43,527 nucleotides of DNA from a virus: IMG/VR virus record IMGVR_UViG_3300024932_000048, positions 1 through 43,527 of that record; one strand, 5' to 3'. This document shows, one piece after another, positions 12,700-41,930 of the stretch. How positions within the stretch are numbered: the first letter of the stretch is position 1; each line of letters begins with the position of its first letter. Below the pieces are notes generated by a model. That model was not told where the DNA came from and made no database searches. It was given only the letters and a program-made list of their open reading frames with translations. Both the position numbers and the translations under genes were made by a program.

Positions 12700-13104
12700 C
12701 TAAAGCGCGGCGGCAGACAAAAATAACGCATCCAACTGGTCGGCCGACCAGCCCATTTCGTCCGCAACCTGCAAGACAAGCGCGTTGTCGCGCAGCAATA
12801 CTACTGCGTATTCCCACTCGATCTGGGCTGCTTGTGGCATAGTGGACACTGCATCGGATACCACGTTCAGCAACCCCGCCTGGAGCAATACCAACCGAGC
12901 CTGTCGCATAGTGATCGATCCAGGAACTACCCCCGCCTGGAGTAATGCGACAGCATCTATAATGACCCACGCACCATCCCGCCAAAAACAACCTGAAATA
13001 GCTCGATCATATTCCGGTGGCGGAGTTCCCGCCCTGCCCATCCACGGTTGTGGGCTCTCTGTAATGATATGCTCGCCGGTATCCGGACTAAATAAATCGT
13101 TCAT
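12700..13104 (-). CDS. Phage protein with tail-assembly-like C-terminus, function unknown
   Basis: 134 residues from the ATG at 13104 (GGGG upstream). The C-terminal half, MRQARLVLLQAGLL through IEWEYAVVLLRDN to SADQLDALFLSAAAL, resembles a small conserved domain found at the ends of tail-fibre-associated phage proteins; the N-terminal WRDGAWV segment resembles a tail-fibre assembly motif. It starts 2 bp after the RT stop. It may be a DGR passenger such as a chaperone for the variable protein; this is inference. Confidence 0.55.
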   Translation of the reverse strand: MNDLFSPDTGEHIITESPQPWMGRAGTPPPEYDRAISGCFWRDGAWVIIDAVALLQAGVVPGSITMRQARLVLLQAGLLNVVSDAVSTMPQAAQIEWEYAVVLLRDNALVLQVADEMGWSADQLDALFLSAAAL

Positions 13105-13105
13105 A

Positions 13106-14068
13106 CTAGACCCCAAGCCTGTTCAGAAGATTATATGAATTCGCCCAATTTGCGTGACCGCGCCATGATGCGATGAATTTGTTAAGCGCAGCATCGTTAT
13201 TAGATGCGCGGTATTTTTTAATTTTTCGTTTAGCGGCAATTACTGATCTGCGACGGATTAGCTTATGCGTCGGCCAAATACGGTAACCCAGCCAATCCAG
13301 CCCATGCGACACATGCCCGATACTCCACTTTGAAAACGTCAGACCCATGTTAGCCTCTGAAAACCACTTAAGCCCGAATTGCAATACCGCCAGCGCCTCG
13401 GGGCTATGCGAAAAAATCACCGTGTCATCCATGTAGCGCAGCCAATGCTTAATATGGAGCGTATGAGTAAGATAGCGGTCAAGGATATGCCCATAAACAT
13501 TAGCAAAAAGCTGACTGGTCAGATTTCCGATCGGTAGGCCGCAGCCAGCGGCGGGAAGAAATGCAGCAATAAGCGCCAATGTACTTTGGCAGCTTATCTT
13601 TCTCCTGATCTCGCCATGCAAGACGGCGCGATCAATGTTGGCAAAATATTTTGAATAATCCAGCTTTAACCAGTGAGTAAGGCCCCGACGCATAATAGCT
13701 TGCGCCTCAATTACCGCAGCATGCGTCCCTTTTCCCGCTCTACATGCGTAATTGTTAGGCAAGAACGTCCGATCGAAAATAGGCTCTATCACATTACATA
13801 AGGCATGCTGAGCCACTCGATCCGCAAAAGGCAACGCGGAAATCTCTCGGCGCTTAGGTTCATTAACAAAGAATATGTTTGGCGGTGACGGCCTGTAACT
13901 ACCAGTCCGTAGCGCATCTGAAAGCATACGGAGATTTGCCGCCAAGTGTTGCTTAAACTGCAAATGCCCGGCGCTATATCGCTTGCCTTTTGCCGCCTTT
14001 TGATAAGCTCGATACAGATTCGGCATACTGGCGATTTCCGCGATTAGATTTTTGTATTTTTTACCCAT
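13106..14068 (-). CDS. Diversity-generating retroelement reverse transcriptase
   Basis: 320 residues from the ATG at 14068; the frame is open to 14158 but that extension looks non-family. Group II-like RT domains are visible: catalytic Asp in LKLDYSKYFANID (D137), the DGR-diagnostic motif IGNLTSQ (about 180-186, in place of the QGxxxSP of retrons and introns), and RYMDD (about 211-215). There is no maturase, protease or integrase domain, as in DGR RTs. It copies the TR RNA into adenine-mutagenised cDNA that replaces the VR. It lies 147 nt downstream of the TR, the spacer arrangement of BPP-1 brt, and works with Avd. Confidence 0.95.
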   Translation of the reverse strand: MGKKYKNLIAEIASMPNLYRAYQKAAKGKRYSAGHLQFKQHLAANLRMLSDALRTGSYRPSPPNIFFVNEPKRREISALPFADRVAQHALCNVIEPIFDRTFLPNNYACRAGKGTHAAVIEAQAIMRRGLTHWLKLDYSKYFANIDRAVLHGEIRRKISCQSTLALIAAFLPAAGCGLPIGNLTSQLFANVYGHILDRYLTHTLHIKHWLRYMDDTVIFSHSPEALAVLQFGLKWFSEANMGLTFSKWSIGHVSHGLDWLGYRIWPTHKLIRRRSVIAAKRKIKKYRASNNDAALNKFIASWRGHANWANSYNLLNRLGV

Positions 14069-14214
14069 AAGTTGCAAGTTCGTCTTTCGAAAGTTCCTAC
14101 TCGACGATCTCTTGACCTCGTAATGTATTTGCCGAAGCAGGATGATGAAGCTGACCACAAAACAGCGTGATCGGCGCCGGCGGCCTTAACCGGTCGGCGC
14201 GGAAGATAATCGTC

Positions 14215-14318
14215 GTCACTGGCAGCCCGCAAGCCGATGTTCCAGTTCGAGTTCCACGGATAGTTGTTCCAGTTGGAAGCGCGAGATCCAGAGTTCGAGC
14301 CGTTCGTACGCGTGCCGC
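14215..14318 (-). repeat. DGR template repeat (TR)
   Basis: 104 bp, non-coding, between the avd stop and the RT gene. On the transcribed (minus) strand it carries eight AAC codon-like triplets placed in the reading frame of the VR. It matches the VR at 14737-14840 with 15 mismatches, 14 of them at TR adenines. Of 23 TR adenines 14 differ; of 81 other bases only one does, a C/G change in the 3' part (IMH versus IMH*), which is silent. Confidence 0.96.
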
Positions 14319-14329
14319 TTTTATCTTAA

Positions 14330-14701
14330 TCATCCCTTTACTGCCTTGCTTTTTATCCATGCGCCAAGCATTTTCCCGGTTTCAGCGAGGTGAATCGATG
14401 CCACCTCGTGCTGATGCCGGCTGATGAGCCGCCTGTTTTCGTTAGCAAGGAAACGCAGTAAAAATCTCAGGTGTGCCAATCCGGCATCGGCAAGATACAG
14501 CTTTGATATTTGCGCTGATTTTCCTGCCTGCTGTAAAAAGCTAACCTGATCAAACATTGCACCAATCAATCGATCCCGAATGACGTGGTGCGATCGGCGA
14601 ATATTAAGCGCTATCGGATAGATATAATTTATAAACCCTTCAAACCGCTCAATAATCGCCAGTTGCCGTTGACTGGCAAATTCGTCGCTTAAAAAATCCA
14701 T
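14330..14701 (-). CDS. avd: Avd, DGR accessory variability determinant
   Basis: 123 residues from the ATG at 14701, preceded by GGAAGCGAG; a TTG at 14722 overlapping the target stop is an alternative. The protein is all-helical, with LAFLRF-like run LAHLRFLLRFLANENRRL and the C-terminal ETGKMLGAWIKS typical of the Avd four-helix-bundle family. Avd forms a basic pentamer that binds the RT and TR RNA and is needed for retrohoming. It lies between the variable gene and the TR, as in BPP-1. Confidence 0.92.
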   Translation of the reverse strand: MDFLSDEFASQRQLAIIERFEGFINYIYPIALNIRRSHHVIRDRLIGAMFDQVSFLQQAGKSAQISKLYLADAGLAHLRFLLRFLANENRRLISRHQHEVASIHLAETGKMLGAWIKSKAVKG

Positions 14702-14718
14702 CACTCGCTTCCGCTCGC

Positions 14719-15783
14719 TCAATCAAGTTGCAAGTGGTCACTGGCAGCGCGCAAGCCGAAGGACCAGTCCGAGTACCACGGATAGAAGCCCCAGTAGGAA
14801 GCGCGAGAGCCAGAGCTCGAGCCGCTCGTACGCGCGCCGCCTAACAAGACTCTCGTATTGGTATTATGGTACATCTGTCCGCGCCCGCCATTGACACTCC
14901 CCCACGCAAATCCGGACGCCTGAGTGCCGGTGTCGCTACCCCATATCCAATGGTGGCCCGTCGCCTGCTCAATCCCGTATTTACTCGTGTAGCCAGGGTT
15001 TCGCTGCGTCAGCGGATATGTCGAAGCTGTCGCATCGATTGATTGATTTTCAGTCACTCCAAACGCCGCATCAACAAACTCGCTTTCTCGTAATAAGCGT
15101 TTCCCGGCCGCGCGAGCCAGCTCATTAGCCGCCCACCATGTCATGTTCGTATAATTTAACGTTCCGTTGCCGCCGAACGCGATAGGGATTTTGGGCAAAA
15201 CTGTACCTGACGCTATGTTTGTGCCGGATTTGCTAGTGCCATTTGCGGCTGTATCGGTCGAACATAGATATACATCCACCCATATGTCATTGACAAACGC
15301 CATACCCTTTGGCGACGGACATTTAGGTCTAAACCTTAAGTCCCATATTGAGTAGTGGTTGATGCCTGCAAGCTTGTCAACATCTGATTGAGTCCAAATC
15401 ATGCCGGGGCCGGTTGTTGCGAAGGAGCCACCCGCTACCGTTTCACCGGTCGCAACCAGTCCGTAGTGGAAGCCGCCGATCAAACGACTATTTGATGCTG
15501 AGTATCCAGCAGGGTAGGTAAACGAGGAGTCCGCTCTGATGCTGCCATCCGAGCAGGCATAGACTGCGTAATCGACGCCAGAGGTCAGCGTTGGCATAAG
15601 AACAGCGGTATCTATAGTGATAGATACCAGGGCACTGCCTACGGCGATCCAAGTATCTGCTTTTACATTCAACGCCCCGGCGCCGACCTTTTCAAAAACA
15701 GGGCTAAATGAGTCAGCCTTATCAAACACCAGACGACTATTGGCCTGGCGACCGCTCGCGCTCGTCAATATAGTGATACCCAT
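14719..15783 (-). CDS. DGR-diversified variable protein, C-type-lectin/FGE fold
   Basis: 354 residues. N-terminal about 140 residues are a beta-rich anchoring domain. Residues about 145-354 form a formylglycine-generating-enzyme-like C-type lectin fold: WWAANELARAAGKRLLRESEF, then WIWGSDTG and the terminal SGSRASYWGFYPWYSDW segment. The VR encodes residues 315-349; positions 317, 320, 323, 330, 332, 333, 337, 339, 341 and 342 carry TR-adenine-derived changes, all eight AAC codons having become Ser, Ser, Tyr, Gly, Phe, Tyr, Asp or Ser. A receptor-binding role is likely by analogy with Mtd of BPP-1. It lies 2 bp after the gene at 15785-16132. Confidence 0.93.
   Translation of the reverse strand: MGITILTSASGRQANSRLVFDKADSFSPVFEKVGAGALNVKADTWIAVGSALVSITIDTAVLMPTLTSGVDYAVYACSDGSIRADSSFTYPAGYSASNSRLIGGFHYGLVATGETVAGGSFATTGPGMIWTQSDVDKLAGINHYSIWDLRFRPKCPSPKGMAFVNDIWVDVYLCSTDTAANGTSKSGTNIASGTVLPKIPIAFGGNGTLNYTNMTWWAANELARAAGKRLLRESEFVDAAFGVTENQSIDATASTYPLTQRNPGYTSKYGIEQATGHHWIWGSDTGTQASGFAWGSVNGGRGQMYHNTNTRVLLGGARTSGSSSGSRASYWGFYPWYSDWSFGLRAASDHLQLD
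14737..14840 (-). repeat. DGR variable repeat (VR)
   Basis: 104-bp partner of the TR at the 3' end of the variable gene. On the + strand, mismatches to the TR fall at offsets 13, 24, 26, 27, 33, 39, 50, 51, 53, 54, 60, 73, 80, 89 and 99; all but offset 13 are T in the TR (A in the transcript). The invariant end GGCTTGCGCGCTGCCAGTGA is the candidate initiation-of-mutagenic-homing site. Only six codons and the stop follow it. Confidence 0.96.
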
Positions 15784-16659: not shown

Positions 16660-16959
16660 TTATTTCTTTCTGGCTTTTGCTGTGGAATTGTCACCGGCAT
16701 CAAGTTCGTTACCGGTATCGGCTTTGTCACCTGCATCAGGTTCGTTACCGGTATCGACTTTGTCACCGGCATCAGGTTCGTTACCGCTATCGGTTTTATC
16801 AACGCCTACCATACCCGCAACAATAACCCCGGCCGCTAGAAGCTGCTCAAGCTGCTGTTCGGTAAAATCTTCAGCATCCAACTCATCACCGGGCTCATAA
16901 TTAACGCCGTCATGGCATATATTATCCAGCGCCACCCAACCCGCTATTTGGGTGCTCAT
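16660..16959 (-). CDS. Mu gp35-like / FluMu_N-type acidic protein with 12-residue repeats
   Basis: 99 residues. Residues 1-50 (IAGWVALDNICHDG, EDFTEQQLEQLLAAGVI) match the FluMu N-terminal domain pattern found next to Mu-like capsid genes. Residues about 55-90 are three copies of an acidic DK(V/A)DTGNEPDAG unit encoded by a 36-bp tandem repeat, then a basic end. Its start overlaps the capsid stop by 4 bp. Function unknown. Confidence 0.7.
   Translation of the reverse strand: MSTQIAGWVALDNICHDGVNYEPGDELDAEDFTEQQLEQLLAAGVIVAGMVGVDKTDSGNEPDAGDKVDTGNEPDAGDKADTGNELDAGDNSTAKARKK
16691..16798. repeat. Three tandem 36-bp repeats in the gp35-like gene
   Basis: Units at 16691-16726, 16727-16762 and 16763-16798, differing at a few positions, encode the acidic 12-residue repeat. 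The repeat is open in several frames on both strands, so long opposite-strand frames here are shadows. Confidence 0.85.
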
Positions 16960-17927
16960 GACGCCACCGCATTATGGAAGTGATAGCCCGCCTCTTTAGC
17001 GATAATCAACTCGTCCAATTGCTCGACGACTTTAACGACTTGACCGCCCTTGACGCCTGTACCGGATTCCTGCCGCGTACTGGTTTGGCGATTGCCGAAT
17101 TCCGCAGTCAAGGCAAAAAACGGCTCAACGAAACCTTGCACAGACTGTACATTCCGTGAAACGCGCAAAAACGACGCATGATTACCCCACAATGGGACTT
17201 TACTGGCGGCTTGGCCTTTTTTAGCAGCATTGGCAAAGGTCTCGCCGACATGGATTTCATCCAGTTCCAGCAGATCGGCGACCGCTTGTTTGGTCAATAC
17301 GCCTTTAGCGGCCATTCCGCCTGCACCACTGGTACGGTTTAAGGCCATCGCCACCGCTTCAGGATGCATGCGTAAAAACCGCCACACACGCTTGTTAAAA
17401 ACCGCCACATTGGGCCTGACGATCATGCTGTCCAGCACCTCCAAAATCTGCGTAATGGGCGTAGAATTAGTATGATCAGACCATTGGTCGGTGCCGCTTA
17501 ACGTCGTCCGCAATCCCGCCTCATAGCTGTTTAAATCCTGATACAGATTGCTTACACGGCGCTCACGGCCAAGAGAGATCAAGATTGACAAGCCTGTTGT
17601 TGCGATGCTGAGCGGATCGAAGTTCGCACCGGCCGCCCGCGCAACATCAATATCTTTTTGCGGGATAAAATCCTCCAAGCCCCAGTCTTTTGTTCTCGCC
17701 GGTACATCATGTGCACCGAATTCCACCTGATTCGCTGCCGATTTACGGCCGATATGGGTATCAACCTCGGTAAACAGCACATCCGAATCCAGCTGCGTGT
17801 ACATAAACAATTCGGCCGGAACGGGAACCCGAGGGCAAACCTGATCGGCAATCATCCCGGTGGGGGATGTGGCCAGCGCGATCTGACTAAGCCGCGGTTG
17901 TACTTCAAAGGGATAATTAGTAGCCAT
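16956..17927 (-). CDS. Major capsid protein
   Basis: 323 residues, HK97-like by synteny. Shows a gpE/Mu-like capsid pattern: ADQVCPRVPVPAELFMYTQLD near the start, EFGAHDVPARTKDWGLEDFIP, then FNKRVWRFLRMHPEAVAMALN and a C-terminal KVVEQLDELIIAKEAGYHF strand-helix. It lies directly downstream of the decoration and protease/scaffold genes, as expected for a capsid assembled on a scaffold cleaved by the upstream protease. Confidence 0.88.
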   Translation of the reverse strand: MATNYPFEVQPRLSQIALATSPTGMIADQVCPRVPVPAELFMYTQLDSDVLFTEVDTHIGRKSAANQVEFGAHDVPARTKDWGLEDFIPQKDIDVARAAGANFDPLSIATTGLSILISLGRERRVSNLYQDLNSYEAGLRTTLSGTDQWSDHTNSTPITQILEVLDSMIVRPNVAVFNKRVWRFLRMHPEAVAMALNRTSGAGGMAAKGVLTKQAVADLLELDEIHVGETFANAAKKGQAASKVPLWGNHASFLRVSRNVQSVQGFVEPFFALTAEFGNRQTSTRQESGTGVKGGQVVKVVEQLDELIIAKEAGYHFHNAVAS

Positions 17928-17936
17928 GATATGTCC

Positions 17937-18308
17937 TTAACCTTGCATAACACTGGGTGCGATGCGCATCCAGATGACATCGTTTAAAACGCCGGATACG
18001 GTTGCGTACCCAGCAATATGCGTATTAACACCCGCCGCCGGAGCCGCCGTAACCGCCAGCCCGTTAGCATCGGAAGTCAATTTGTCGCCGCGCGTCACCG
18101 TGCCGCCTAAACGCACCTCGACACAATCGTCAACAATAATGTCGGCACGATCGCCCAATACGCCGCCGATATTGCCATTACCGCCGATAATCAAATCAGT
18201 TGGGCCGGCGGCTGGAACAACAACCCCGTCCGCTGCTCCGAATTTAATCAGCTGATACGGATCAGTATCTGCCCCCAGTGCATAATTGATAGATTCGCCT
18301 TCTCTCAT
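17937..18308 (-). CDS. Head decoration protein (DUF2190-like cement)
   Basis: 123 residues; beta-rich with GGNGNIGGVLGDRADIIVDD and RLGGTVTRGDKLTSDANGLAV, the typical pattern of phage capsid cement proteins of the DUF2190 type that stabilise the expanded shell. Start overlaps the protease/scaffold stop by 4 bp (ATGA) and the capsid gene follows after 9 bp. Confidence 0.8.
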   Translation of the reverse strand: MREGESINYALGADTDPYQLIKFGAADGVVVPAAGPTDLIIGGNGNIGGVLGDRADIIVDDCVEVRLGGTVTRGDKLTSDANGLAVTAAPAAGVNTHIAGYATVSGVLNDVIWMRIAPSVMQG

Positions 18309-18823
18309 GACTTCACCTTGTCCACATTGGCAGTAACGGCATCGACCGCATCAGCCGTGCTGATATGGATGCCGAATTCAAGTTGCTTGGCTTGATAAGC
18401 GACGGCCCGTTGCGCAATCGCTTTATCGCTGACCGCCTGGGCTTGCTTGTCATGACCGGCAATCTCGCCGAATTCCACTTGTTTAGGCAGCTTGGCTAAA
18501 AACTCTTTCCGGAACCAGTCCAGTCCGTTGATTTTAGTTTTAGCGTCGCCCTCGCCGAACTCGATCACATCGGCCGGTTTTTCAGCGGCCATAAAAGCCA
18601 CCAAGCCGTCTTTATCGCGCGGCAATATCTTGCCTTCGGTGATCAGTGATTCTACAAAGGCGCTCGTGGCGCTCAATTTTGTAGCAAACTCGATTTGCGC
18701 AAGCTTGGCTTCGCGCTGGCCGAACTCGGCTTCTTTGGCCGTCAGCTGCTCTTGTTGTGCAGCAATGTCTTGCTGCTTTTTATCTAGTTCCGCCTGTTTA
18801 GCGGCGATTTCTTCGGGGGTCAT
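18305..18823 (-). CDS. Nested scaffold protein from an internal start (gpZ-like)
   Basis: An in-frame ATG at 18823 within the protease gene is preceded by GGAG with a 5-base gap (complement at 18829-18832). It would yield a 172-residue protein starting MTPEEIAAKQAELDKKQQD, that is, exactly the coiled-coil scaffold portion without the protease. Mu makes gpZ and lambda makes Nu3 in this way. The start is seen in sequence; use is inferred. Confidence 0.6.
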   Translation of the reverse strand: MTPEEIAAKQAELDKKQQDIAAQQEQLTAKEAEFGQREAKLAQIEFATKLSATSAFVESLITEGKILPRDKDGLVAFMAAEKPADVIEFGEGDAKTKINGLDWFRKEFLAKLPKQVEFGEIAGHDKQAQAVSDKAIAQRAVAYQAKQLEFGIHISTADAVDAVTANVDKVKS

Positions 18824-19330
18824 AGTGGCTCCAGGGTTTGAGGGGGTAGCGGTATCGGCCTGCGCTGCGCTGCCGGTTGTTTCGGATTCGCCGAATTCGA
18901 TAATGATTGCATCGCCGCCATCTGCAAATTCCGGCGCAGCCAGCCCTTGTACGGCAGGCGGGTGCGCACCCAGAAAGCCCACATGACGCAGGTAATACAC
19001 GCCGGGGACGGGGTTGTTAGGACTATCGGGATGGTAAAAAGCGGCGGAGATTTTTGGGAACAACTTATCGTTGACCATTTGCCCGAAGGCCGGATAGACA
19101 TCTTTGGGGATCGCCGACAAAATGCCGTCGGCAAACGCCAACGAGGCTACCCAGCCAAATGCGGGGCTATCGGTCTGGGGATGACCGACCACCAACGGCG
19201 CATCTTTCAGCGCTGGGTCATAGGCCGTTGCGGTCGCAACAACATCGGCTTCGGAAAACGTCAGCGCATCACCACTCATCGTAGTGTGCGTGCCGGGCTT
19301 AAAAATTTGGATGAGGTTATTTTTTTTCAT
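18305..19330 (-). CDS. Mu gpI-like prohead protease with fused scaffold
   Basis: 341 residues from the ATG at 19330 (reading MKKNNLIQIFKPGTH, the usual family start); an ATG at 19351 adds seven residues. Residues about 1-150 are the Mu-like protease domain (APLVVGHPQTDSPAFGWVASL, YYLRHVGFLGAHPPAVQGL). Residues about 175-220 are a Gln/Glu/Lys-rich coiled coil, the scaffold part. It cleaves the scaffold and itself during head maturation. This is the first gene of the leftward late operon; no strong ribosome site is visible. Confidence 0.88.
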   Translation of the reverse strand: MKKNNLIQIFKPGTHTTMSGDALTFSEADVVATATAYDPALKDAPLVVGHPQTDSPAFGWVASLAFADGILSAIPKDVYPAFGQMVNDKLFPKISAAFYHPDSPNNPVPGVYYLRHVGFLGAHPPAVQGLAAPEFADGGDAIIIEFGESETTGSAAQADTATPSNPGATMTPEEIAAKQAELDKKQQDIAAQQEQLTAKEAEFGQREAKLAQIEFATKLSATSAFVESLITEGKILPRDKDGLVAFMAAEKPADVIEFGEGDAKTKINGLDWFRKEFLAKLPKQVEFGEIAGHDKQAQAVSDKAIAQRAVAYQAKQLEFGIHISTADAVDAVTANVDKVKS

Positions 19331-19364
19331 GGCGCTCAGTGTAGCGGCCATGAATGAACGGGGG

Positions 19365-19885: not shown

Positions 19886-20035
19886 ATGAATAGAATCATC
19901 AACTGGATAAGAACCGGCGACGCAGAGTTAAATTATCCGCTGGACGATTATGATAGAGAACGTCATAAATTCCACTGGATCGCTCTGGTAGTGACTTTAG
20001 CGGCTTGGTTTTTTACTATTTACGCAATTGTATAA
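19886..20035 (+). CDS. Small single-pass membrane protein in an attC-bounded cassette
   Basis: 49 residues from the ATG at 19886. A charged N-terminal half (NWIRTGDAEL, DDYDRERHKFHW) is followed by one membrane segment, IALVVTLAAWFFTIYAIV, at the C-terminus. The stop TAA is part of the R'' box of attC site 2, and the gene starts 27 bp after the crossover point of site 1, so the segment 19859-20143 (285 bp) is a textbook-sized gene cassette. Confidence 0.6.
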   Translation: MNRIINWIRTGDAELNYPLDDYDRERHKFHWIALVVTLAAWFFTIYAIV

Positions 20036-32730: not shown

Positions 32731-32874
32731 ATGCCTGTCGTTTTTGTAATGATGGGCTGGCACAGGCCGCCCTCGGGCGGGCCGTTTCCTTTTGAGCGGT
32801 AGTGAGATCCTGTGTCAGTCCATCACCCAATCTCGCAGGTGATGGCATCTTTAATTTCAAAAGGAAAAAATATC
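32731..32874 (+). promoter_or_regulatory. Structured antirepressor mRNA leader with C4 target sites a' and b'
   Basis: Holds the C4 targets at 32756-32763 and 32796-32807, a 23-codon leader frame (ATG 32731, stop 32800-32802) that spans both targets, a CCGCCC/GGGCGG hairpin (about 32768-32781), a long-range TGGCACAGG/CCTGTGTCA pairing and a CCATCACC/GGTGATGG hairpin (32820-32845) just before the antirepressor. C4 pairing would block leader translation and expose the message to premature termination, by analogy with P1. Confidence 0.65.
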
Positions 32875-33582
32875 ATGAATACTGCATTACAAACCTTCCA
32901 CTTCCAATCCCATCAATTAACCGTCATTACCGATGAGCACGGCGCATCCTGGTTTATCGCCAAAGAAGTTGCTGAAATATTGGAATATAGCGATGCGCAC
33001 AAGATGTGCGAAAAACTAGATGATGATGAAAAGTCAAACCGCGAAATCGGCGGTTTGGGAACAGCTACAGGTGGACGTGGAATTATCATCATCAACGAGT
33101 CCGGATTATGGTCATCGGTCCTACGAAGCACCAAACCCGAAGCCAAGACGGTTAAAAAATGGCTCACCTCAGAAGTCCTTCCTGCTATCCATAAAACCGG
33201 CAGCTATAACGCCCCCAACACTGAAGCGCAAAAGCTAATGGAGATAAAAGACCAATTACTGGACTCGCAAAAACAATTGCTGGCCTCGCAACAGTACAGC
33301 CATGAGGCTTTCAAGGAAAAAACCAACGCCTATATCGAGCATTTGACCCAGCAAAACAAGCAGCTTAATTTTAGAGCCAATATCAACGCAGAGAGCAATA
33401 AGCGAAACCGCGAGGAATTGGCGCGGGCGGTACGCGCTCAGCGTCCGATTGCCGCCGCCGAGGAGAAGGAAATTGCGGAATGGCACGCGCAGGGCTGGAC
33501 GGTGCATAACTTAGCGATCCATTTTTATCGTAATGCCGGTATTATTCGCCGCTCTATCCGTAATCAAGGAGGTACGGTATGA
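32875..33582 (+). CDS. Phage antirepressor with BRO-N domain
   Basis: 235 residues from the ATG at 32875, chosen for AAAAGGAAAAAA upstream; a GTG at 32812 would start inside the leader. Residues about 1-110 are a BRO-N domain (HQLTVITDEHGASWFIAKEVAEILEYSD, NESGLWSSVLRSTKPEAKTVKKWLTSEVLPAIHKTGSY). A coiled coil and a KilA-C-like basic end with a resolvase-type HTH (EEKEIAEWHAQGWTVHNLAIHFYRN) follow. It is expected to inactivate the prophage repressor when C4 control fails. Stop overlaps the next start. Confidence 0.88.
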   Translation: MNTALQTFHFQSHQLTVITDEHGASWFIAKEVAEILEYSDAHKMCEKLDDDEKSNREIGGLGTATGGRGIIIINESGLWSSVLRSTKPEAKTVKKWLTSEVLPAIHKTGSYNAPNTEAQKLMEIKDQLLDSQKQLLASQQYSHEAFKEKTNAYIEHLTQQNKQLNFRANINAESNKRNREELARAVRAQRPIAAAEEKEIAEWHAQGWTVHNLAIHFYRNAGIIRRSIRNQGGTV

Positions 33583-38632: not shown

Positions 38633-40168
38633 ATGAATATCATCGATTCAAGAACCGGAAAGCCTTTTGCCGCCAGTCAGCCTATTTTTGATGAGGTGGC
38701 CACTACTGAAAACGGCCGGGACATCACTCTAGGCTATGTCGATAGTCTGCCTTTATTGCCGACAACTGACCCGATCCAGAAGCAGCGCGGCTTCGATCTG
38801 CGCGTTTACGCCGAAACTCGCCGTGACGATCAGGTACAAACGGCCTTGCAACAGCGCAAATTGGCGTTAACCGGTAAGGAGTGGAATGTGCTGGCCGGTG
38901 GCAGTAAGCGTCAGGATAAGGCGGCGGCAGATTTTATTACCGAGCAGCTGGGCAATATCAACTTTGATCGGGCTAATGAGAAGATGCTGGGGACAGGGTT
39001 GTTTTACGGCCATGCGATGGCGGAATGTTTGTGGGCCAGGGACGGGGCGAATATTGCCTTGGCTGATATTAAGGTCAAGAATGTCAGGCGGTTCGGTTTT
39101 GCGCCTAATGGCGATTTGCGTCTGCTGACGTCGGAGAATCCGATGGGCGAGGCGGTTCCCGATCGCAAGTTTTGGGCTTTTTCAACCGGCGGGGATGATG
39201 ACGATTCGCCGTATGGCCTGGGTTTGGCCCACTGGCTGTATTGGCCAACGTTTTTTAAGCGCAACGGTATTAAATTCTGGTTGATCTTTTTGGAAAAATT
39301 CGGCATGCCGACCGCTGTAGGCAAATATCCGCCGGGGTCTTTGCAAGCCGAAAAAGAAAAGTTGTTACATGCGTTGGCGGCTATCCAAACGGACAGCGGG
39401 GTCATTATTCCTGACGGCATGACCATTGATCTGTTGGAGGCGGCGCGTTCCGGTTCTGCTGATTATACGGCGCTGTATGACCGTATGGATGCGGCAATCA
39501 GCAAGGTGATTTTAGGCCATGCCAGTACGACGGACTCCACGGCCGGCAAGTTGGGCGGGGATAATATGGCCTCGGAAGTGCGCTCGGATATTACGGCGGC
39601 CGATGCGGATTTGATTTGCTCTTCGTTCAATCAATCTGTCGTTAAATGGTTGTGCGAGTGGAATTTTCCGGGGGCGGCGCAGCCTAAGGTGTGGCGTGAA
39701 GTGGAGGAAGCGGAAGACCTGAAGTCAAGAGTGGATAGGGATAAAGTGATTTACGATATGGGCTATAAGCCGACGTTGAAATATGTCACTGAAACGTATG
39801 ATATGGAGGTTGAGGCTGTTAAGCCGCCAGCACAGCCGCCGACCGATTCGCCGTCGGCGGATGCCACGGCTACGCCTGATGCTGCGTTTGCCGAGGCGGA
39901 TAGTATGCAGCCTGGGCCGGATGATGTTGATCCTACGCCGGTTTCGGCGATGACTGATCAGCTCGCGACCGAAGCCGGCGGTGCGTTTAAGACAATGATC
40001 GATCAAATTACTGCACTGGTGGATCAAGCTGATTCGTTAGAGGCATTGAGCGCTAAGCTGCTGGACGGTTATGGTGGCTTGGATAGTGATGAGCTGTCTA
40101 ATGTGATGGCGCTGGGGTTTGCTGCGGCTGAGCTGGCTGGGCGATTTGATGTGAGTGAGGGTGGCTGA
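38633..40168 (+). CDS. Portal protein (Mu gp29, DUF935)
   Basis: 511 residues. Starts with a DUF935 pattern (TLGYVDSLPLLPTTDPI; DLRVYAETRRDDQVQTALQQRKLALTGKEW), continues with FKRNGIKFWLIFLEKFGMPTAVGKY and ILGHASTTDSTAGKLGGDNMASEVRSD, all family hallmarks. Forms the dodecameric DNA gate of the head vertex. C-terminal 110 residues are acidic and Pro-rich. Overlaps the next gene by one base. Confidence 0.93.
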   Translation: MNIIDSRTGKPFAASQPIFDEVATTENGRDITLGYVDSLPLLPTTDPIQKQRGFDLRVYAETRRDDQVQTALQQRKLALTGKEWNVLAGGSKRQDKAAADFITEQLGNINFDRANEKMLGTGLFYGHAMAECLWARDGANIALADIKVKNVRRFGFAPNGDLRLLTSENPMGEAVPDRKFWAFSTGGDDDDSPYGLGLAHWLYWPTFFKRNGIKFWLIFLEKFGMPTAVGKYPPGSLQAEKEKLLHALAAIQTDSGVIIPDGMTIDLLEAARSGSADYTALYDRMDAAISKVILGHASTTDSTAGKLGGDNMASEVRSDITAADADLICSSFNQSVVKWLCEWNFPGAAQPKVWREVEEAEDLKSRVDRDKVIYDMGYKPTLKYVTETYDMEVEAVKPPAQPPTDSPSADATATPDAAFAEADSMQPGPDDVDPTPVSAMTDQLATEAGGAFKTMIDQITALVDQADSLEALSAKLLDGYGGLDSDELSNVMALGFAAAELAGRFDVSEGG

Positions 40169-40767
40169 TGGCTAAATTAGTGTCTGTGCTATTTGCCAGA
40201 ACCGACAGCAACTATAAAAGCATCAACGGCTGTGACGTTTGGGACATTAACCGCGACGCTTTACAGTGGCCGGGCGGAACGCCCGTTGTAGCCCATCCGC
40301 CCTGTCGCGCCTGGGGACAGTTAAGCCATATGGCTAAGCCCCGTAAAAATGAGAAGGAGCTGGCGCTATGGGCGGTTGATAGGGTTCGGGAATTTGGCGG
40401 CGTTCTGGAGCATCCCAAGCAGTCAAAGCTATGGGCGGCCAAGAAATTGCCGTTACCGAATGAGGTTGATGAGTTCGGCGGTTGGACGCTGCCTATCTTT
40501 CAATGTAATTTCGGACATACGGCGGAAAAGCCGACTTTTTTATATATCGTCGGCATTACCCCTGAATCCATGCCGTTGATGCCGGTATCGCCGGGGCCGG
40601 AGGCATGTATTATCGGTTCTCATGGGCGGCGCTCCGATGGTAGCCGCTTGCAACCCGGCGATTACGGCTATCGAAAGTCATGTTTCAGGCCCGATAGGGA
40701 ACATACGCCGCCTAAATTAGCCGAATATCTGGTAGACATAGCCAGGCTGTGTGAGCCATGCCGTTAA
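40168..40767 (+). CDS. Conserved phage protein with PPC motif, inserted between portal and MuF
   Basis: 199 residues. The N-terminal part runs VSVLFARTDSNY, VVAHPPCRAWGQLSHMAKPR and VDRVREFGGVLEHPKQS, resembling motifs of cytosine-C5 methyltransferases (PPC) but lacking the SAM-binding FxGxG and other motifs; the C-terminus has Cys/Arg-rich ends. It is found, as I recall, as a free-standing gene in many phages without known role. It overlaps the portal stop and MuF start, so it is a true operon member. Nucleotide or DNA modification is one possibility. Confidence 0.6.
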   Translation: MAKLVSVLFARTDSNYKSINGCDVWDINRDALQWPGGTPVVAHPPCRAWGQLSHMAKPRKNEKELALWAVDRVREFGGVLEHPKQSKLWAAKKLPLPNEVDEFGGWTLPIFQCNFGHTAEKPTFLYIVGITPESMPLMPVSPGPEACIIGSHGRRSDGSRLQPGDYGYRKSCFRPDREHTPPKLAEYLVDIARLCEPCR

Positions 40768-41930
40768 CTATATCTCCTACCCAGACTGCTTTTAACGCCA
40801 GAGGCGACGGCAGTTTTAAATTGCCGTTCCCGGAACAAATCGATTTTTTTAGGCAGAAGCAAAACCTGCCTACCGAGCGTTACGATGACATTCTAAAAGA
40901 GGCGCATGATCGCGCGTTTGTGGTGGCCGGGGCAATGAAAGCTGATCTGTTGAATGATCTGCGCAAAGCGGTGGACAAAGCCATCGCCGAGGGCAAGACC
41001 ATTGACTGGTTTCGAAAGGAATTCGAGGCGATTGTGCAGAAACACGGCTGGGAAGGTTGGACGGGTAGCGATACTAAGGCCGGACGCGACTGGCGGACTC
41101 GGGTGATTTACAAAACCAATTTGTCGGCCAGTTATGCCGCCGGCCGCTGGCAACAATTACACGATCCCGATCTGCTTAAAGGTCGTCCTTACTGGAAATA
41201 TATTCATAACGATACGGTCCAGCACCCGCGCGAACTCCATGTAGCATGGTCAGGGACGGTGCTGCGCTATGACGATCCGTGGTGGCACACGCATTTTCCT
41301 CCCAATGGCTGGGGCTGCCGTTGCCGGGTTGCGGCGGTTACCGCCGATGAGTATACAGGCGCAAAACCGCTCAGTGGCGATACTTATACTTATATAAATA
41401 AGGATGGCAAGATGCGTACCGTACTCAATAGGGTCGATCCAGATTGGGATTACGCGCCGGGGAAAAGCAATCTTGACAAGTTGATAGGCTTTCGACAGCA
41501 AAAAATGGAAAACCTGCCTTGGCAATTGGCCCGTTCAAATGTGATGGATTTGGTCAACAGCTCTATTTTTGCTCGCTTCTTTAGCGGTGAGCTGCACGGT
41601 GAGTTTCCGGTCGCGGTGCTGCCGGTTGAGGATCAGGCGTTATTGGGTTCGGATACTGCGACGGTGTTGCTGTCGCAGCATTCTTTGTCCACGCACTTGC
41701 TTAGTCACCCTGAAATAGGTTTGGCGGATTATCGTAAGATACAGACCATTTTGGAAGAGGGTGAGGTTTATCGCCAAGGCGATGAGCGTTTGATTTATCT
41801 GGCGCTGGACGGTGTTATCTATCGGGCGGCATTAAAACGCACGATGGACGGACAGAAGAATTATTTTTTGACGCTGTTTATCGATGAGCGTGGCAAACCG
41901 CCGGGCGGGGCTGTAAAAGTTGAACGGTGA
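40758..41930 (+). CDS. MuF-like minor head protein (gp30) with extra C-terminal domain
   Basis: 390 residues. Residues about 40-195 are the Phage_Mu_F domain, ending with the hallmark HPRELHVAWSG ... WWHTHFPPNGWGCRCR (157-190). Residues about 283-380 are an added domain (LLSQHSLSTHLLSHPEIGLADY, IQTILEEGEVYRQGDERLIYLAL) resembling the phage Barnase-EndoU-ColicinE5-RelE (PBECR) nuclease group often fused to MuF. MuF sits at the portal vertex and may be injected. The nuclease call is tentative. Confidence 0.88.
   Translation: MPLTISPTQTAFNARGDGSFKLPFPEQIDFFRQKQNLPTERYDDILKEAHDRAFVVAGAMKADLLNDLRKAVDKAIAEGKTIDWFRKEFEAIVQKHGWEGWTGSDTKAGRDWRTRVIYKTNLSASYAAGRWQQLHDPDLLKGRPYWKYIHNDTVQHPRELHVAWSGTVLRYDDPWWHTHFPPNGWGCRCRVAAVTADEYTGAKPLSGDTYTYINKDGKMRTVLNRVDPDWDYAPGKSNLDKLIGFRQQKMENLPWQLARSNVMDLVNSSIFARFFSGELHGEFPVAVLPVEDQALLGSDTATVLLSQHSLSTHLLSHPEIGLADYRKIQTILEEGEVYRQGDERLIYLALDGVIYRAALKRTMDGQKNYFLTLFIDERGKPPGGAVKVER

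Follow-up and report, generated by a model that had tools for sequence, protein, structure and literature searches.

The question raised by this locus is whether the genes and repeats found in a 43,527-base IMG/VR virus record (the whole stretch of DNA analysed, hereafter the window) form a complete diversity-generating retroelement (DGR) of the type known from Bordetella phage BPP-1, whether such an element has been active in nature, and how its target site is marked. The features on which the analysis is based are the following.

14719..15783, (-): DGR target gene, encoding an Mtd-like tail/receptor-binding protein of 354 aa whose C-terminus comes from the variable repeat (PF21916 1.3e-21; phrog_11262 9.7e-97; PDB 1yu0 Mtd 1.8e-57)
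14734..14840, (-): variable repeat (VR), identified by letter-by-letter comparison and a repeat finder; sister contigs vary there only at TR-adenine positions
14734..14758, (-): IMH region of the VR (G in the TR and C in the VR at 14749 and 14736)
14701..14720, core 14704-14717, (-): putative post-VR target hairpin, GAGCGAGC-GGAA-GCGAGTGA, placed as the BPP-1 hairpin and with outer pairs that covary in relatives
14330..14701, (-): avd (accessory variability determinant), with an ATG at 14701 that gives about 123 aa and the frame open to a TTG at 14722 (PF22296 1.4e-28; phrog_3206 8.4e-27; PDB 4dwl/8ub7_B)
14212..14318, (-): template repeat (TR), identified in the same way as the VR
14074..14200, (-): DGR RNA spacer structure, Rfam RF03022 Phage_DGR (86.8 bits, gathering 50)
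13106..14068, (-): DGR reverse transcriptase (RT), 320 aa, frame open to a GTG at 14158 (phrog_1423 3.8e-114; PDB 8ub7, BPP-1 Brt, 9.6e-101)
12700..13104, (-): small gene after the RT, tail-fibre-assembly-like by position only (phrog_6034 1.2e-15)

The target protein was 37.8% identical in amino acids to BPP-1 Mtd, its PF21916 match corresponds to the second domain of Mtd, and its C-type lectin fold was assigned through the Mtd sequence match (1.8e-57). The AlphaFold model of the target (mean pLDDT 57.9, with values below 40 in the VR region) was too poor at the C-terminus for use. Avd matched the Bbp7/Avd structures, and its translation most likely starts at the ATG at 14701, as in relatives. 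The RT showed 49.5% identity to BPP-1 Brt, and its start is most likely the ATG at 14068, because the N-terminus MGKKYKNL aligns with that of Brt and the DGR RNA ends at 14074. The RF03022 score of the spacer compares with 104.7 bits for BPP-1 itself. The target, avd, TR and RT follow one another in this order on one strand, with the structured DGR RNA between TR and RT, as in the BPP-1 type. The original prediction had described a complete DGR with its parts in BPP-1 order (target, avd, TR, spacer, RT) and with the DGR-type motifs IGNLTSQ and YMDD in the RT; this description was borne out, since RT, Avd, Mtd-like target, RNA and TR/VR were all matched, each part resembles its BPP-1 counterpart also in sequence, and both motifs fall in invariant or nearly invariant alignment columns. 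The element can accordingly be classed, from its sequence, as a complete BPP-1-type DGR and, apart from its hairpin, as a further member of a well-known kind. A homologue of the small gene also comes after the RT in several relatives. Small open frames overlapping the TR, present in the window and in some relatives, were taken as chance occurrences.

Comparison of the two repeats over 107 nt revealed 16 mismatches, 14 of them located at TR adenines (hypergeometric P=1.6e-9); the TR contains 24 adenines over this length. A shorter pair of 104 bp had been predicted (TR 14215-14318 and VR 14737-14840, with 15 mismatches, 14 at TR adenines), and it proved exact when checked letter by letter, as did the 23 TR adenines within it, the alteration of all eight AAC triplets and the single silent G/C change in the IMH region, which is the G-to-C at 14227/14749 (CGG to CGC, Arg). 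The repeat runs 3 nt past this pair, to 14212/14734, which adds a second G-to-C change converting an Asp codon into His. The IMH at the end of the VR differs from the IMH* of the TR at 14749 and 14736, a difference also expected of the BPP-1 type, and the C/G difference adjoining GAC was found again in nearly all relatives. The VR corresponds to codons 316-350 of the 354-codon target, and the eight AAC codons in the TR frame, all altered in the VR (8/8), align with the variable residues 347, 350, 357, 359, 360, 364, 366 and 368 of Mtd (alignment with PDB 1yu0 and the BPP-1 TR). No other adenine-biased repeat pair, second VR or second DGR was found in the whole 43,527-base window.

Natural activity was studied by comparing assembled viral contigs, not reads. 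Comparison with near-isogenic phages, which the original prediction had proposed as a check, placed the VR differences at TR adenines. Contig L034 aligned with window positions 19925-14657 over 5,269 bp with 8 differences, all of them in the VR and at TR adenines (8/8 in both cases). The metagenome of L034 also yielded L006, with a third VR allele whose differences from that of the window all fell on TR adenines (11/11); L006 starts inside the VR and its end could hide errors, yet all its changes hit TR adenines. Altogether, the three window-type alleles varied at 13 sites, every one of them a TR adenine (13/13, P=1.4e-10, ignoring the shared descent of alleles), and contained no stop codon. 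The allele of L034 (V2) was also carried by L005, L007 and L008, with no changes in TR, avd, spacer or RT, and it is present in four metagenomes. In L005, L006, L007 and L008 the TR was identical to that of the window and the VR was changed, as expected from a fixed template. Contigs L032 and L010 had the VR exactly as in the window; L010 is an exception regarding the template, with two TR changes (14300 G>A and 14287 A>C) that point to rare TR drift and a template that is not perfectly fixed.

The same pattern was observed in a second phage group (L017, L019, L020 and L031), whose RTs are 78% identical to that of the window. All 18 variable VR sites in this group were at TR adenines (18/18, P=2e-17, again ignoring the shared descent of alleles). 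Over 1,641 bp, L017 and L031 differed at 9 positions, every one a VR position with A in the TR; between L020 and L031 there were 18 differences over 3,622 bp, and the 13 that fell in the VR were at A (13/13). When sixteen TR/VR pairs from the family were pooled, TR adenines accounted for 171 of the 185 mismatches. The VR alleles also showed a mosaic structure, with V1 and V2 common only in the 5′ half, and V2 and V3, as well as L017 and L020, only in the 3′ half. Because some alleles match in one half only, part of the VR variety appears to come from allele recombination or partial homing.

Two other explanations of the TR/VR differences have to be weighed against recent activity. One is that the differences are old and the element is dead, a reading with which one genome alone would be compatible and to which the unchanged VR of L032 and L010 could be added; it is very improbable in view of alleles that stand 8-11 sites apart at TR adenines within kilobases of identical flank, and of open frames and intact catalytic motifs throughout. 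The other is that the VR alleles of different contigs arose without fresh mutagenic homing, either by the usual recombination between phages that have diverged or as artefacts of assembling the TR/VR repeat. The mosaic alleles (the V1/V2 5′ block and the V2/V3 and L017/L020 3′ blocks) and the tendency of assemblers to break or misjoin at the TR/VR repeat and at the 2.7-kb cassette shared between phages speak for it, but recombination spreads alleles and leaves the adenine rule (13/13 and 18/18 variable sites) unexplained. Moreover, new bases at TR adenines matched neither the TR nor another allele, V2 was recovered from four metagenomes and the pattern was repeated in the second phage group, so we give this explanation very little credit. 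We consider it highly probable that the element is a complete, recently active BPP-1-type DGR. The original prediction had argued for activity from intact frames; the activity stands, on the strength of sister contigs that differ in the VR only at TR adenines, although frames alone are a weak argument for it. These near-clonal contigs would catch a natural phage DGR in action. In a survey that covered over 30,000 DGRs, signs of recent activity were reported for 50-75%, the viral ones ranking highest (PMC8144416).

The phage carrying the element had been predicted to be a Mu-like siphophage, in agreement with its genes. These include a MuA-like transposase (phrog_310, 4e-83), a MuB-like AAA protein (phrog_296, 5.9e-74), Mu head genes (Portal_Mu, 1.6e-108; Phage_Mu_F, 1.6e-14; and gp36) and the long-tail genes of a siphovirus (tape measure, tail terminator and Ig-like major tail protein). 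The Mu-like head module is rearranged, with protease and capsid at 16956-19351 (-) and the Mu portal and F at 38633-41930 (+), far apart. A C4 antisense RNA (RF01695, 71 bits) at 32745-32830 (+) is located where a Bro-N antirepressor-like gene (32812-33582) begins, resembling a P1/P7-like immunity circuit. A second assembly, G007, is identical to the window over 12705-43527 save for 3 bases at its end; the window, G006 and G007 all end at the same base (43527), after a D12 adenine methyltransferase gene, a position that may be the end of the genome or a break shared by the assemblies.

Contigs L005, L007 and L008, from three metagenomes, share window positions 12718-15447 with 8 differences in the VR; beyond the VR, only one further single difference was found in L007 and two in L008 along this stretch. 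L005 continues upstream into a lambda-like portal, a ClpP-type protease-capsid protein and a decoration protein, in contrast with the Mu-type head of the window, and downstream into a different tape measure. One crossover of the cassette was located at about codon 112 of the target, in its N-terminal part, and the other where the small gene behind the RT ends (breakpoint 12705-12717); VR allele V2 occurs on both phage backbones. Across the family the target ranges from 342 to 711 aa, with varied N-terminal parts ahead of a conserved Mtd-like C-terminus. Short reads do not span the shared stretch, so that an individual pairing of junctions may be an assembly artefact; each join was, however, recovered in several assemblies, which makes the linkage of the cassette to two or more contexts on each side, upstream and downstream, robust. 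The occurrence of this 2.7-kb cassette in phages with unrelated head and tail is best read as a recent module swap, in which the diversity of host recognition and the machine that generates it would travel together as one module. Window positions 19925 and 12705 are recurrent mosaic breakpoints, up to which relatives match perfectly and beyond which they diverge. In two relatives, a second and different DGR with its own RT and TR/VR was observed (L011 9928-12826 (-) and L015 11234-13069 (-)); that of L015 also has a bAvd protein and an Rfam RT-15 RNA, and that of L011 an FGE-sulfatase-type target. Both seem to lie within the phage, close to a tyrosine integrase and to SSB and other early genes, and these would therefore be two-DGR phages.

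The hairpin is the only point at which the element would depart from the described BPP-1 kind. Phage DGR hairpins have been described with GC-rich stems of 7-10 bp and GRNA loops, and BPP-1 homes efficiently only with a hairpin or cruciform downstream of its VR (PMC3240598); more recently the hairpin was reported to be widespread among phage DGRs and to matter for homing without being strictly required (PMC12875486). The hairpin of the window has the expected position and a GGAA loop (GNRA, which also fits GRNA), closed by two Watson-Crick G-C pairs, a tandem G.A, a C-G pair and a G.T wobble, which falls short of the described stem. This does not by itself exclude the BPP-1 type, because the hairpin is not strictly required for homing (PMC12875486). 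A reading in which the post-VR hairpin was missing came from looking for an uninterrupted stem, and was abandoned when the alignment of relatives showed the hairpin. In relatives the hairpins lie at a nearly equal distance, mostly 23-25 nt past the IMH GAC. A GA-type hairpin was found at 33 of 81 loci with a TR/VR pair (24 distinct sequences), and most of the other loci had full or nearly full Watson-Crick stems; 0.007 occurrences of the GA-hairpin motif are expected in 87 nt. The first pair outside the tandem G.A was Watson-Crick (C-G, G-C or T-A) in 21 of the 24 sequences against 10.8 in shuffles, and the next pair outward in 19 of 24 against 9.2 (p<1e-5 in both cases, uncorrected for relatedness). 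These data suggest a hairpin class common to many relatives, of which no earlier description was found in the open-access literature. A tree of 63 RTs requires five or more switches of hairpin type, one of them between the near-identical RTs of L068 and L069, which rules out inheritance of the class as one sequence. Coding constraint from avd was likewise discarded as the cause of the GAGCGNNAGCGA letters, the frame relative to the avd start being different in the window and L011.

Tandem G.A pairs are stable in DNA and tandem C.T pairs are not. The opposite strand would carry tandem C.T, and GA stems should therefore be stable on the sense strand only. In a strand- and loop-blind search of 62 distinct family hairpins, internal mismatches were G.A 55 times and C.T never, which suggests that folding takes place on the sense strand. 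Counted by hairpin, mismatches of the kind stable on the sense strand occurred in 30, against 2 with the reverse (p=2.5e-7, uncorrected for base composition and relatedness). Whether the hairpin or the cruciform is the target mark was left undecided in 2011 (PMC3240598), and natural hairpins with G.A and without C.T would favour the sense-strand hairpin and allow a simple test. The sense strand is also the strand to which the cDNA must anneal. In a 2026 study, homing was reported to be best with the cDNA-complementary strand on the lagging-strand template, the stem-loop being suggested to keep an exposed single-stranded target open (PMC12875486), a result that the sense-strand hairpin fits.

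A different view of the post-VR element, as a cruciform or as a regulatory or translational element of avd, has several observations behind it. The hairpin directly precedes the avd start codon, its nearest-neighbour DNA fold in the window reaches only -0.8 kcal/mol, the inner GC and GA letters are nearly constant, as in a protein-binding sequence, and an RNA hairpin would have the same appearance. On the other hand, its position equals that of the experimentally required BPP-1 hairpin, the outer pairs covary well above expectation, the frame relative to avd differs between members, and GA hairpins have been swapped with perfect GC stems in the switches on the RT tree, including that of L068/L069. 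Weighing both sides, we regard the cruciform or avd element as rather unlikely and lean slightly towards a target mark that is a single-stranded hairpin of the sense strand and not a symmetric cruciform, with about 40% of the BPP-1-type DGRs examined, the window included, using an undescribed form with a GNRA loop, two G-C pairs, tandem sheared G.A and additional pairs beyond them. If this is so, the hairpin type could reveal the DNA strand used by a DGR.

The proposed mechanism would begin with a transcript of avd, TR, spacer and RT, reverse-transcribed by the RT with Avd, in the course of which TR adenines would be miscopied. The mutated cDNA would then take the place of the VR in the 3′-terminal part of the Mtd-like target gene, at a site presumably marked by the sense-strand hairpin tolerant of tandem G.A pairs, leaving the TR as it is, and the replacement would alter the C-type-lectin receptor-binding surface of the phage. 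In this scheme the priming of cDNA in the spacer, the role of Avd and the effect of the changes on host choice are carried over by analogy from BPP-1.

DGRs were already known in Mu-like phages (PMC6199706, PMC12135933). The Bacteroides hankyphage (PMC6199706, PMC12135933), BalMu-1 and Chromohalobacter YPCBV-1 (PMC9769972) resemble the window in that a temperate or Mu-like phage carries the DGR and the target is a structural protein of the phage, but their RTs are more distant (37% for BalMu-1 and 37% for YPCBV-1) and their targets are partly of other kinds. Marinomonas phage P12026 and Synechococcus phages S-CBS1 and S-CBS3 carry an Mtd-like tail protein with 36-37% identity to the target of the window, and are absent among the RT matches listed for the phage collection, beyond which there were 119 weaker ones. 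The closest comparison is with the BPP-1 DGR (mtd-avd-TR-brt), which shares with the window the gene order, the RT (49.5%), the Avd fold family, the Mtd-type target (37.8%), the RF03022 DGR RNA, adenine-specific TR/VR differences, variable codons at matching Mtd positions and a hairpin after the IMH. Unlike BPP-1, the window phage is Mu-like with long-tail genes and has the cassette between head-completion and tail-terminator genes; its IMH differs from the TR at 2 positions (5 in BPP-1) and has no clear (GC)14, and its hairpin is short with tandem G.A mismatches, whereas that of BPP-1 has an 8-bp GC stem. Phages frequently carry DGRs, and the novelty of the window element is its hairpin, which belongs to a recurrent class outside the described stem rule.
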